64,000 nt of DNA, taken from positions 80,125 through 144,124 of the forward strand of contig NZ_KI913950.1 of assembly GCF_000332095.2 (NCBI RefSeq), read 5' to 3'. Made by a program: the position numbers and the translations under genes. Each line of letters opens with the position of its first letter. The first letter of the stretch is position 1. Under the pieces are notes generated by a model that was given only the letters and a program-made list of their open reading frames with translations, was not told where the DNA came from and did no database searches. Positions 33,438 to 38,142 of this stretch are shown one piece after another. The stretch comes from Leptolyngbya sp. PCC 6406 (lineage in GTDB: Bacteria; Cyanobacteriota; Cyanobacteriia; Phormidesmidales; Phormidesmidaceae).

Positions 33438-34025
33438 ATGCCTGCCAAGCTGACCAAGGCCGAACAAACCCGCCGCACCCGCCGCGCCATATTGGATCGG
33501 GCGCGGTACTTATTTGCCACGAAAGGCTATGCCGCCACTGGCACCGAGGAAATTATCAGTGAACTGGGGATTACCCGTGGGGCGCTATACCACCAGTTCA
33601 ACGACAAGCTGGGGGTGTTTAAGGCGGTGGTGGTGGAAGCCTATGGCGAAATCACCGCCCACATCCGTACCCGCATTGAGCTGTTGGAAACCAACTGGGA
33701 GCAGCTCGTGGTCGGCTGTCAGGCATTTCTGGAGGTCGCCCAGCAAGAGGATTTGCGGCGGTTAGTGTTTATCGAAGCGCCAGCGGTACTAGCCGCAGAC
33801 ACCTTGGTCGAGATTGACCAGTATGGGTTTGGCTTGCTTCAGGAGCCGATTCAGATGGCGATGGATGAGGGCCAATTGCAGGTGATCGATGGCGAAGGTT
33901 TTGCCCATGTGGTGAATGGGGCGCTGAATGAGTTGGCAGCCTGGGTGGCCCAGTCGGAGAGTCCGCAACGGCTGAAAACGGCTCAGCAATTAGTGGAGGC
34001 GTTGCTCATCCGGCATCGGAGCTGA
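33438..34025 (+). CDS. TetR/AcrR family transcriptional regulator
   Basis: 195 residues. The N-terminal HTH is TRRAILDRARYLFATKGYAA to LGITRGALYHQFNDK (residues 12-60), followed by an all-helical ligand domain. Family members repress neighbouring efflux or detoxification genes and are released by small ligands. No obvious target is adjacent: the downstream Rieske gene is convergent. Two operator-like repeats upstream suggest autoregulation. Confidence 0.92.
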   Translation: MPAKLTKAEQTRRTRRAILDRARYLFATKGYAATGTEEIISELGITRGALYHQFNDKLGVFKAVVVEAYGEITAHIRTRIELLETNWEQLVVGCQAFLEVAQQEDLRRLVFIEAPAVLAADTLVEIDQYGFGLLQEPIQMAMDEGQLQVIDGEGFAHVVNGALNELAAWVAQSESPQRLKTAQQLVEALLIRHRS

Positions 34026-34136
34026 CGGGATGTTCTGTAGTGGAGTGAACGGTTCTTGCTCAGTCTTTCACAATTGATCTGCCCCCCGTTTGGTTTCAGC
34101 CTTCATTAAATAAGAGCTATGAGTCTTGTGACAAAC

Positions 34137-35159
34137 CTAGATACAGTTGTCAACTTGAGGGCGATCACCTCTGGACAAATTGGGTTCGACTACCGCCGGA
34201 AAGTTGGCAAAATTGCGCTTCACCCAATCCATACCAACCTCATTGTTCAGCTTAATTTTCTGTGGAGTGTTGCTATAGAGCTTGCTCAGAATATCGACAT
34301 CTTGTTCCACTACCACCTTGCCAAACTTGAGATAGCTAGAGCCCAATACCTTAAACGCCGGATGTCTGGCTTGACCAAAAAGCAAAATGTAAGTGCGGGT
34401 ACGATACTCCGCTTCCGGCACAAAAAGATGACACTGGGCTACTTTCCCCAGAGATGTTTCGCCATGAAAGATGACTAGAGACGGAAAGTGGTTCTCCAGA
34501 TGAGCTTTGATTGTATCCGGCAGCAAAAACAAATCTGGCTTTCTCAGCTTTTCAGTCCAGGTGTAGGCAGCCGTGGGCATGTCATAAAAAGCGTGGGACT
34601 GGTGACCCTGGTCAATAAATTGGTGAAACTGCACCTCTGTGATTTGAAATAGGTGGCGATGGGTACCATTTTGGTGATTGTAATCGTGCATGTTGAGCAG
34701 CAGGGTCAGCAGATCCGTTGCCACGCTAGTATCGGCTGTATGGCCAATAAAATCGTAGGTATCAGCGATCTCCTTCAACCGGGTCGGAATCGGTACTTCA
34801 GGTTCGTAACCACCGTAGGACCAAATAAAATCGCCCTGAATCACCAACGCTAAGGGCTGAAGTTGCGGTAAAGTTTTCTGCTTTTTCCCTGGGAGCACTG
34901 TGCATCCCTGAGCATCAAAGGGCAGCGCATGAAAGGGGCAAACGACCTGACTACTGCCATCCTCAACCACGTCGCACCAGCCCTCAGACAGCATTGCTCC
35001 CATGTGGGGACAAGCATTGGGCAACGCTTGGACAGTCCCAGTCTCATCCTTCCACATTACATAATCATTACCGTGGAGAGATAGTTTGCGGGGCTGGTTT
35101 ACAGCCAGCATCGACTTATGCGCCAGCAACCAGGGCGCACCGGGCAACATTGAGGGCAT
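34137..35159 (-). CDS. Rieske non-haem iron oxygenase
   Basis: 340 residues. The Rieske [2Fe-2S] ligands are Cys50-Pro-His52 and Cys74-Pro-Phe-His77. The catalytic domain carries the mononuclear iron motif D-x2-H-x4-H in HDYNHQNGTH. This layout (alpha subunit alone, with no beta subunit gene nearby) matches the chlorophyllide-a-oxygenase/PaO-like and dicamba/vanillate demethylase groups. It oxidises an aromatic or hydrophobic substrate and needs a separate reductase or ferredoxin, which is not encoded here. The start is ATG 35159 (MPSMLPGAPW). It is divergent from a TetR-type regulator 52 bp away that presumably controls it. Confidence 0.88.
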   Translation of the reverse strand: MPSMLPGAPWLLAHKSMLAVNQPRKLSLHGNDYVMWKDETGTVQALPNACPHMGAMLSEGWCDVVEDGSSQVVCPFHALPFDAQGCTVLPGKKQKTLPQLQPLALVIQGDFIWSYGGYEPEVPIPTRLKEIADTYDFIGHTADTSVATDLLTLLLNMHDYNHQNGTHRHLFQITEVQFHQFIDQGHQSHAFYDMPTAAYTWTEKLRKPDLFLLPDTIKAHLENHFPSLVIFHGETSLGKVAQCHLFVPEAEYRTRTYILLFGQARHPAFKVLGSSYLKFGKVVVEQDVDILSKLYSNTPQKIKLNNEVGMDWVKRNFANFPAVVEPNLSRGDRPQVDNCI

Positions 35160-35211
35160 GATGGCCTCCACCAGAGATAAAATTGTGAGAAATTCGTCGC
35201 CTTTTCAAAAT

Positions 35212-35997
35212 ATGACAGATCTCTCGCATTCGTCAAGCCATCTGCGTCGCCAACCGAAGCAGCAGCGGGGTAAACAGCGGGTTGAAAAAATTCTGGCGGC
35301 AGCAGCCCTCGTATTCGATGAAGTCGGGTATGAAGCCGCGACGACTCATATGATTGCCGCTAAGGCTGGGACGGCGATTGGGTCGCTGTATCAGTTTTTC
35401 CCAGATAAAGCTGCCATCTTCCAGGCCATGGAACTGCGTCATCTGGAACGGGTTCAGGCGATGTGGACGCAGGTGAATGCTTCTGACATTGGGCGACGCC
35501 CCCTAGAACAGATGCTGGCTGCCCTAACGTCGGCTGTGGGTAAGCTCTTTGAAGACCCCGTCTCGCGGGTAATGTTTGTCCAGTTCTACACCTCTCGCGA
35601 GCTGTTTCAGTCCATTGATGAAGGCTTGACTCAGACGGTGATCACGTCTCTAGCCATGCTCTTGCAGCAGCGCAATCCAGCGTTGTCCAGCCCCAAGGCG
35701 AATGTATTGGCAGAGGTCTGTGTTCACAGCAGTAATGCCGTGATGCTGGCTGCTTTTCGCCAGGGCGATCAGGGGCATAGTCAGCAGCTTATGCAGGAAA
35801 TTCAGGCACTGTTGAGGGCTTACCTGGAGCCCCACGTCGGGGATGAGGATAGTGCTCATGTAATGAAAGTAATGATTTGTCCCCATTGCCAGTCAGATCG
35901 CCTGACTAAGAATGGTCATCGCCGTGGCAAGCAGTGCTATCGCTGCAAGGACTGCGGCAAGCAGTTTGTCAGCGTTCAAGCCATGGCTCAGAGTTAG
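35212..35997 (+). CDS. TetR-family regulator fused to an IS1-type zinc ribbon
   Basis: 261 residues from ATG 35212. Residues 1-220 are an ordinary TetR protein (HTH FDEVGYEAATTHMIAAKAGT to SLYQFFPDK). The last 40 residues switch to MICPHCQSDRLTKNGHRRGK and then QCYRCKDCGKQF, the InsA-type zinc ribbon (C-x2-C...C-x2-C) that begins IS1-family transposases. The join is in frame. Either an IS1-like fragment was captured at the 3' end of the gene, or it is a real fusion that adds a DNA-binding finger. It is divergent from the Rieske gene. It stops at 35995-35997 after AMAQS, where an IS1 InsA would continue. Confidence 0.85.
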   Translation: MTDLSHSSSHLRRQPKQQRGKQRVEKILAAAALVFDEVGYEAATTHMIAAKAGTAIGSLYQFFPDKAAIFQAMELRHLERVQAMWTQVNASDIGRRPLEQMLAALTSAVGKLFEDPVSRVMFVQFYTSRELFQSIDEGLTQTVITSLAMLLQQRNPALSSPKANVLAEVCVHSSNAVMLAAFRQGDQGHSQQLMQEIQALLRAYLEPHVGDEDSAHVMKVMICPHCQSDRLTKNGHRRGKQCYRCKDCGKQFVSVQAMAQS

Positions 35998-36066
35998 AGT
36001 TAGAGTCGTCGCATAACTCTTCCTTGACCACTGAGGGTTTGTCCCAATGTGGGCGCAATAGTTGAC

Positions 36067-36750
36067 TTATGGGTTGGTCTTAATCCCCGCCAATATCCCC
36101 GTCAAGATTAGAGCGATCGCAGACTCGGTCAGCCGCTCAATGGCTTCTGGAGTGAACCACTCAAACTCTGGCCGCACGTTTCGCATATTCGGCTGTGCGT
36201 TGAAGTAAAACGTGCAGATCGCCATAATGTGGTTCACCACCAGCCAGGGATCGACCGAGCGAAATGTACCGTCTTCGATCCCCTGTTCGACAACGGCCAC
36301 AACTCGATTGATGGGACCATCCCATCCGGTTAAGTGAAAATACTTCCCCTGATTCTCCATGGCTTCATGGAGGAGCACTCGCCCATAATCGGGATGACTG
36401 ACTTCATGGGCAATGGCTACCCGAATCACGGTCTTGATTGCTTCATCGGGAGGCATTTGCTCTAAGTCTAGCCCCTTAAAGGCATTAGCAAAATCTGCTG
36501 CGGGTCGTTCCAGGACCGCTTTGTATAGCTCATCTTTACTGCTGAAGTAGTAGTAAATCATGGCCTTGGTCACACCCGTTCGGGCTGCGATCGCATCCGT
36601 TTTAGCTCCAGCAAAGCCAAAGCGAGCAAACTCTTCTTCAGCCGCCGCCAAAATCTCTGCCCGAGTTGCCTCTGCATCACGGGTTTGCCGAATCGCAGTT
36701 CGCCCTGCCTTCGCCGCCAATGTGCCTAAAGTCCCTACCAAGCTACCCAC
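36067..36750 (-). CDS. TetR family regulator, divergent from psbA
   Basis: 227 residues. The HTH is TRAEILAAAEEEFARFGFAG to GVTKAMIYYYFSSKDELYK, followed by a helical ligand-binding domain ending LTESAIALILTGILAG. It reads away from psbA. The 282 bp between them contains two perfect inverted repeats around a promoter for psbA (36821-36885), so this protein is the likely repressor of that psbA copy. Regulators of this type respond to small hydrophobic molecules. Confidence 0.9.
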   Translation of the reverse strand: MGSLVGTLGTLAAKAGRTAIRQTRDAEATRAEILAAAEEEFARFGFAGAKTDAIAARTGVTKAMIYYYFSSKDELYKAVLERPAADFANAFKGLDLEQMPPDEAIKTVIRVAIAHEVSHPDYGRVLLHEAMENQGKYFHLTGWDGPINRVVAVVEQGIEDGTFRSVDPWLVVNHIMAICTFYFNAQPNMRNVRPEFEWFTPEAIERLTESAIALILTGILAGIKTNP

Positions 36751-36820: not shown

Positions 36821-36885
36821 AACTAACTGGAAAGTTAGTTGTTGACACCCTGGAAGCCCTGGGTTACATTAACTAACGAGTTAGT
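36821..36885 (+). promoter_or_regulatory. psbA promoter bracketed by two TetR-type operators
   Basis: Operator 1 AACTAACTGGAAAGTTAGTT (36821-36840) has perfect 8-bp arms. TTGACA (36842-36847) and TACATT (36865-36870) are 17 bp apart, a near-consensus sigma-70 promoter reading toward psbA. Operator 2 ACTAACGAGTTAGT (36872-36885) overlaps the expected start point. The two operators share the ACTAAC/GTTAGT half-site, as expected for one repressor. Confidence 0.8.
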
Positions 36886-37044
36886 CAGTAGTGCGTCTGC
36901 CTCTACGGCTAACCTGCCTGTTTAGCCTGAGTGATGCTTTATCGCGTCAGATGTCGTCAGTAATTTGGATCGGCCTTTGACGCTCTAAAAAAGCAGTAAT
37001 TAGCCTGAACAGACGAATTTTGCTGTTTTTTAATGACTATCCAT

Positions 37045-38142
37045 ATGACGACTCTCTTGCAACGGCGCGATCGCGCCAGTCTTTGGGAGCAGTTTTGCCG
37101 TTGGATCGTCAGCACCGAAAACCGCCTTTATATCGGCTGGTTTGGCGTGGTGATGATTCCAACCCTGCTAACTGCAACCGCCTGTTTTGTGATTGCCTTC
37201 ATTGCGGCCCCACCCGTAGATATTGATGGTATTCGAGAGCCTGTCGCGGGCTCGTTGATGTATGGCAACAACATCATTTCAGGGGCAGTGGTGCCCTCGT
37301 CTAACGCCATTGGTTTGCACTTTTACCCCATCTGGGAAGCGGCATCATTAGACGAATGGCTCTACAACGGTGGCCCTTACCAGTTGGTGATCTTCCACTT
37401 TTTGCTGGGAGTATTCACCTACATGGGTCGGGAGTGGGAGCTGAGCTACCGTTTAGGAATGCGTCCCTGGATTTGTGTCGCCTACTCTGCCCCGGTTGCT
37501 GCTGCTACCGCCGTGTTCTTGGTCTACCCGCTGGGTCAAGGATCCTTCTCTGACGGTATGCCCCTGGGCGTTTCGGGCACCTTCAACTTCATGCTGGTAT
37601 TTCAGGCGGAGCACAACATTCTGATGCACCCGTTTCACATGCTGGGGGTCGCTGGGGTGTTTGGCGGGGCGCTGTTCTCTGCTATGCATGGCTCTTTAGT
37701 AACCTCCAGTCTGGTGCGAGAGACCACCGAAATTGAGTCTCAAAACTACGGTTATAAGTTTGGCCAGGAGGAAGAAACCTACAACATCATTGCCGCCCAT
37801 GGCTATTTTGGCCGCCTAGTGGGGCGCACTAATGAGGTCATCCTTGGTGTTAATGCCAATAGCCGCAGCCTACACTTTTTGCTGGCAGCTTGGCCGGTCG
37901 TGGGCATTTGGTTTACGGCCCTGGGCATTAGCACTATGGCCTTTAACCTGAATGGCTTTAACTTCAACCAGTCGGTGCTCGATTCTCAAGGTCGGGTGAT
38001 TGCGACTTGGGCCGATGTGATCAACCGCGCCAACCTGGGTATGGAGGTGATGCACGAGCGCAATGCCCACAACTTCCCGCTGGATTTAGCTTCGGGTGAG
38101 GCAACGCCAGTAGCGCTTAGCGATGTCCCTGTAATTCGCTAG
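37045..38142 (+). CDS. psbA: Photosystem II D1 protein variant with altered QB-site loop
   Basis: 365 residues from ATG 37045 (ATG 37033 would add four). Numbering matches canonical D1 up to His252. TyrZ 161, Mn-cluster ligands Asp170 and Glu189, His190 and Fe/QB ligand His215 are all present. After GYFGRL the usual stretch with Ser264-Phe265 is replaced by [13 protein letters not shown], five residues longer, and then NSRSLHF resumes with the second Fe ligand (now His277). The C-terminal ligands His337/Glu338/Asp347/Ala349 (canonical 332/333/342/344) remain, followed by a 16-residue cleavable tail. The altered loop is where plastoquinone QB and triazine/urea herbicides bind. The gene is controlled by a near-consensus promoter between TetR-type operators and ends at a strong terminator. 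It should assemble a water-oxidising centre but have changed QB chemistry or herbicide binding. Confidence 0.93.

Follow-up and report, generated by a model that had tools for sequence, protein, structure and literature searches.

The D1 protein of photosystem II is among the most conserved proteins in biology, and the psbA genes that encode it are thought to respond to light and redox. Herbicide-resistant D1 mutants altered at Ser264 are known. On the regulatory side, ligand-triggered release is the normal mode of action of TetR repressors, and inducible resistance by target replacement is exemplified by MecI and mecA.

Ser264 and Phe265 of D1 form hydrogen bonds with QB, and Ser264 has been proposed, together with His252, to deliver the first proton to QB (PMC4030317). 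According to a 2025 survey of D1 structures, the Ser264/Phe265 region varies little in structure between D1 groups, and changes there would be expected to be selected against; the same survey describes the loss of several Mn-cluster ligands in the atypical groups G0-G2 (PMC12096807). The locus described here combines a psbA gene that lacks the Ser264/Phe265 loop with a divergent tetR gene. Taken separately, TetR switches and psbA paralogues are familiar; their combination, together with the loop, appears to be new, as our literature search returned no report of a TetR-linked psbA or of a D1 with this loop (subscription literature, including surveys of D1 diversity, was mostly outside its scope).

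The tetR-psbA intergenic region

The window, that is, the whole stretch of 64,000 nt analysed, corresponds to G000:C2:80125-144124, where C2 is a 196-kb contig of a three-contig, 5.78-Mb assembly. A strong ParA match of its own (158 bits) makes C2 a probable plasmid, although no overlap is found between its two ends. The genome harbors four psbA genes, and the other three, located on contig C1, are 85-89% identical to the variant. The features of the locus are the following:

36067..36750, minus strand: tetR, divergent from psbA, encoding a repressor with TetR_N and TetR_C_29 domains and with orthologues at every variant psbA locus
36821-36840, no strand: upstream dyad AACTAACTGGAAAGTTAGTT, a perfect 8-4-8 dyad, probably a weakened form of the family operator AACTAACnnGTTAGTT
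36842-36847, plus strand: psbA promoter, -35 element TTGACA, invariant in 19/19 aligned loci
36865-36870, plus strand: psbA promoter, -10 element TACATT, at a 17-bp spacer from the -35
36872-36885, no strand: downstream dyad ACTAACGAGTTAGT (AACTAACGAGTTAGTC, 36871..36886), over the expected psbA start point
36887..37044, plus strand: psbA leader, about 160 nt, with weak structural support
37045..38142, plus strand: psbA, encoding a D1 with a variant QB loop, in an open reading frame that opens at 37033 (TIGR01151 match, alignments)
37822..37857, plus strand: codons of the replaced QB loop, 12 residues in place of the standard FQYASFN (alignments)

The start codon of psbA is probably the ATG at 37045 (MTTLLQRR) rather than 37033, since relatives start at that ATG. 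In turn, the start codon of tetR may be the TTG at 36718-36720 instead of the GTG at 36750, as several relatives appear to begin there. The tetR product scores above the cut-off for both PF00440 (57.9 bits) and PF17938 (41.4 bits), and its N-terminal HTH and TetR-type C-terminal domain place it in the TetR family.

A preliminary description had proposed a near-consensus TTGACA-17-TACATT promoter enclosed by two TetR operators, with a divergent tetR next to it. The position of tetR (36067-36750, minus strand) is as described, and so are the positions of the promoter elements, the 17-bp spacer and the complete -35. The -10, however, fits TATAAT at 4/6 positions, so that only the -35 is a full consensus match. 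The -10 elements of relatives at their variant psbA genes are TAAATT, TAAGCT, TATACT and similar.

The dyads bracket the promoter at the places where they had been drawn, and conservation at 19 loci (see below) provides the decisive support. The 3' end of the upstream dyad sits two bases ahead of the -35. Their standing as operators differs: the downstream dyad, AACTAACGAGTTAGTC, is a canonical family operator with one mismatch, whereas the upstream dyad is off the family register. When the family sequence AACTAACnnGTTAGTTAnTTGTTGACA is set against the window sequence AACTAACTGGAAAGTTAGTTGTTGACA, one AGTT unit is found as GGAA, and comparison with AACTAACnnGTTAGTTAnTTG likewise places GGAA where one AGTT would be expected. 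The upstream site is therefore probably weakened, and its 8-4-8 architecture looks like a shifted, decayed remnant of the 7-2-7 operator of the family. Chance was evaluated by dinucleotide shuffling of the 282-nt gap between tetR and psbA: a palindrome whose arms are 8 long and whose loop does not exceed 8 was seen in 4.3% of shuffles, and two dyads with a common 7-nt half-site in 0/5000.

The leader was also examined. Just 5' of the psbA start codon, nine relatives share without change the 12-nt sequence TTGCTGTTTTTT (37020-37031), which the other psbA loci of this genome lack. A possible long-range stem, CTGTTTAG..CTGAACAG, folds in five relatives. An RNA switch in the leader was considered and is recorded here as no more than a possibility, since covariation speaks against the stem (term +0.64) and the leaders of the remaining relatives differ.

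Conservation of the operators and distribution of the gene pair

Variant loci were found through TetR relatives in genome contigs and by a peptide search with the QB loop, and 19 variant psbA promoters were aligned on TTGACA. A divergent TetR is present at all of them (19/19). Mean identity over the 19 promoters is 88% in the downstream dyad and 81% in the upstream dyad, compared with 43% in a 16-nt spacer segment, and the start-to-start distance between dyads is mostly 50 bp (51 or 54 in some loci). The Gloeocapsopsis promoter (L135) has the downstream dyad without the upstream one; this absence, along with the degenerate upstream dyad of the window, indicates that control by two operators does not hold everywhere. 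A TetR HTH was detected no farther than about 1.5 kb from the gene at 15/15 variant psbA loci and at none of 31 standard psbA loci (0/31); only three of the latter belong to the same order, so that their value as a control is limited.

The genome of the window contains five sites with two mismatches or fewer from AACTAACnnGTTAGTT, two of which are the psbA dyads; the same search with a reversed control pattern yields 14. The search for a wider regulon in this genome gave only three further 2-mismatch sites and a total below the reversed control, for which reason the switch looks local. The genome-wide scan detected no such operator near the other three psbA genes. Over the order (65 genomes), all of the exact AACTAACnnGTTAGTT sites listed precede a tetR of this kind; at one mismatch, the reversed control pattern is equally common.

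Dyad operators in a divergent promoter, a trait of TetR regulators with a divergent target, are thus recognizable here by sequence and by conservation. Adjacency, operator conservation, promoter geometry and restriction of the sites to the locus provide comparative support for the earlier proposal of TetR control, which for this psbA copy can be considered strongly supported on comparative grounds. Binding, repression and induction by TetR are what we infer from these patterns.

Among homologues about 40-55% identical to this TetR, a Rieske oxygenase gene is often found opposite, and others face an FAD_binding_3 monooxygenase or a P450; some Okeania loci have an extra small gene between the facing genes. 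The operator (up to two mismatches, up to 400 nt upstream) is found at 26 of 40 distant homologue loci, with 0.13 expected. Hence, it is a property of the TetR subfamily that does not depend on the target. A single clade (100/99) of the TetR tree unites 17 psbA-linked regulators. The regulators of L135 and L197 fall outside this clade, the latter grouping with Stenomitos regulators, one of which is Rieske-linked. These positions suggest, although not securely, that variant psbA genes were paired with such sensors more than once: the AU test is borderline, with p = 0.027 when both L135 and L197 are included and 0.115 without L135, and the branches are long. In the same tree, L018 carries a Rieske-linked label, although the Rieske gene adjoins its sister L021 and none was seen beside L018 itself.

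Several neighborhoods of related regulators can be recorded. In Nostoc sp. XA010 (L026:2477-3838), a cytochrome P450 gene lies opposite a homologous TetR. In L201, L202 and L203, a paralogous TetR lies opposite a gene, from about 5430, for an FAD-dependent monooxygenase with weak similarity to tryptophan halogenases; the host genomes also carry a variant psbA. In the window, three different TetR-family regulators (TetR_C_41, TetR_C_15 and TetR_C_29) are found within 3.4 kb (33438-36750). A Rieske oxygenase gene at 34137-35171 (minus strand), homologous to those opposite sister TetRs elsewhere, forms a divergent pair with another TetR (TetR_C_15) and lacks an AACTAAC dyad there. The TetR-family open reading frame at 35086-35997 (plus strand) has a C-terminal zinc-binding domain of the IS1/IS1595 type and is possibly a fusion with a transposase fragment.

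The peptide search detected the variant loop in 13 of the 65 genomes of the order. A fourteenth, G392, was missed by the search as its GRTNE loop is more diverged (AHGFLSRLLGRTNEIIGAKANSRTNHF; L197:4849-5943); this locus has exact operators at two sites, and its TetR belongs to a different lineage. In a fifteenth, G390, the contig breaks inside psbA beside tetR and the loop cannot be read. Outside the order, the tetR-psbA variant is found in Gloeocapsopsis crepidinum (L038/L135), and also in Leptolyngbyaceae M33_DOE_097 (L014) and strain CCP2 (L015), both provisionally counted as outside the order. Among 386 genomes evenly drawn from the phylum, a high-scoring loop occurs only in the genome of the window and in the Gloeocapsopsis-like G005. 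In viral contigs, the best 80 matches listed are only 69-71% identical to the query peptide, like standard loops, and the plasmid collection yielded no D1 above 90% identity.

Among the open reading frames around the loci, tetR and psbA alone recur everywhere. As they are the only genes common to all loci, the pair behaves as a two-gene cassette. Flanking genes vary by lineage and are shared among close relatives only, as in the group beside rbcL, and G429 has two copies of the cassette in different surroundings. Relics of tetR that have lost their N-terminal part, with psbA gone, are found at L199:432-776 (G413) and L013:4001-4528 (G420, contig 24), at what looks like the rbcL-linked site. 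The two genes are lost together at these sites.

Could TetR mainly regulate itself, with a constitutive or light-driven psbA promoter for which the dyads matter little? Autoregulation is common in TetR pairs, and an operator that lies upstream of distant TetR homologues whatever the neighboring gene would be in agreement with it. This explanation seems, however, extremely improbable, as the dyads bracket the -35 and -10 of psbA and are kept there at 18 or 19 of the 19 loci, loss of psbA is accompanied by decay of tetR, and the pair persists in unrelated surroundings.

The variant D1 protein

The product of the variant gene is a D1 (PsbA) by the TIGR01151 equivalog (757.8 bits vs. a cut-off of 596). 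It does not have the standard form of the QB loop: whichever side the alignment is anchored from, residues 264 and 265 are not Ser and Phe. The segment FQYASFN (260-266, including Ser264 and Phe265) is replaced by a 12-residue, GRTNE-type loop that is five residues longer, and the loops of all variant loci have GR[T/M]NE...ANSR in common. The changed QB loop noted in the preliminary description is therefore real, and is present in every full-length TetR-linked psbA found.

Ligand conservation was examined in an 18-row D1 alignment. The equivalents of the Mn ligands Asp170, Glu189, His332, Glu333, His337, Asp342 and Ala344 are invariant, and so are those of Tyr161, His190, His118, His198, His215, His252, His272, Glu244 and Tyr246. 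The variants form one clade in the D1 tree (support 99/98) and evolve under purifying selection, with a pN/pS of 0.095 for the gene as a whole and 0.228 for the loop; because of this, we consider the variant a kept form, not a decaying copy. A structure predicted from the 18-row alignment had low confidence (mean pLDDT 41, pTM 0.26).

One reading of the lost loop is that the variant does not support plastoquinone reduction and acts as a sentinel-like or non-photosynthetic protein that holds or silences photosystem II. The conserved Ser264/Phe265 loop is indeed missing, and atypical D1 groups with other functions exist (PMC12096807). We find this reading very unlikely: G0-G2 lose Mn ligands, whereas the variant keeps all of them plus the non-haem-iron and bicarbonate residues, and conservation over most of its length matches that of a functional D1. 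Identity with ChlF, rogue or sentinel D1 is ruled out by the retained Mn ligands.

Another reading, the main rival to inhibitor resistance, is altered QB chemistry without resistance. The gene would then encode a regulated D1 with tuned acceptor-side chemistry that protects photosystem II under stress; TetR would sense an internal signal (for instance, an oxidised quinone or a breakdown product of lipids or pigments), and the variant D1 would alter the redox potential, exchange or protonation of QB. Loss of Ser264 and Phe265 must alter QB hydrogen bonding and the proposed protonation route (PMC4030317, PMC12096807), and the water-oxidation ligands are retained. In addition, inhibitor genes are not linked to the loci: a search for an inhibitor biosynthesis cluster nearby found none conserved, as neighbors differ from locus to locus. 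However, the patchy spread (13/65 genomes of the order) and the cassette-like behavior are more in keeping with a challenge met now and then than with a core response to stress, and related TetRs adjoin monooxygenases typical of foreign aromatic compounds. On balance, we regard protective tuning as rather unlikely.

Proposed mechanism and comparison with known systems

The reading that we favor, and hold to be probable to a fair degree, is that a local ligand-responsive repressor holds off an alternative D1. TetR dimers would occupy the AACTAAC-type dyads, of which one adjoins the -35 and the other covers the start point, and would sterically block the strong psbA promoter. Binding of a small molecule to TetR, most likely aromatic or quinone-like, would open the promoter and allow synthesis of the alternative D1, which the usual D1 repair cycle would then insert into photosystem II. 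This D1 keeps the water-oxidation and non-haem-iron ligands and carries a reworked loop at the QB site that lacks the Ser264/Phe265 segment; the new loop might supply QB contacts of its own. Photosystem II could thus run with the standard QB site blocked, or with a changed QB chemistry.

A small molecule is the expected inducer, given what TetR proteins generally respond to and the monooxygenase genes linked to distant homologues. The simplest candidate is a compound of aromatic or quinone-like nature, possibly an inhibitor that acts at the QB site, because the sister sensors control monooxygenases of aromatic type and only the quinone/herbicide niche of D1 is changed. It is plausible that the inducer is a photosystem II inhibitor and that the variant D1 is resistant, the latter because the Ser264/Phe265 loop is lost. 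An extended version, which we put forward tentatively and judge to have somewhat less than an even chance, is that the TetR sensor detects natural or synthetic photosystem II inhibitors and switches on a D1 that escapes them, as a mobile two-gene target replacement; the oxygenases under sister sensors may destroy the same compounds.

Altogether, some filamentous cyanobacteria hold a spare D1 with a replaced quinone- and herbicide-binding loop, its gene being placed behind a repressor switch that is conserved. These observations suggest a D1 for emergencies, which a chemical, perhaps a photosystem II poison, would turn on. If true, cyanobacteria possess a dedicated chemical-response photosystem II. 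The loop would offer a natural rebuilt QB pocket for work on quinone binding and herbicide action, and the switch would provide a lead to natural photosystem II inhibitors in microbial mats, as well as a ready-made inducible promoter. Chemical warfare at the QB site would also pass from a loose idea to a test involving two genes and one operator.

Comparison with described systems places the locus as follows. The variant has the same cofactor ligands as standard group 4 D1 (the closest solved being Synechocystis D1 2, PDB 6wj6 and 7n8o) but differs in its 12-residue GRTNE-type loop in place of FQYASFN and in its TetR-linked promoter. Like the atypical D1 of G0, G1 (ChlF) and G2 (rogue/sentinel), it is a divergent psbA paralogue of restricted distribution; unlike them, it keeps all Mn-cluster ligands and is altered at Ser264/Phe265. 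With one-component repressors of the TetR, AcrR and TtgR kinds, it shares the divergent gene pair, the dyads across the promoter and the TetR_N plus ligand domain architecture; here, however, the apparent target is neither an enzyme nor a pump but a subunit of the photosystem II reaction centre. The QB/herbicide contact changed in Ser264 herbicide-resistant mutants is the same (PMC4030317), but instead of a point mutation the variant shows a conserved loop replacement that occurs in nature, and the gene concerned is a separate one with its own regulation. Lastly, the logic proposed would be that of MecI and mecA, in which a repressor frees an alternative, less sensitive target, the proteins of both systems being unrelated.
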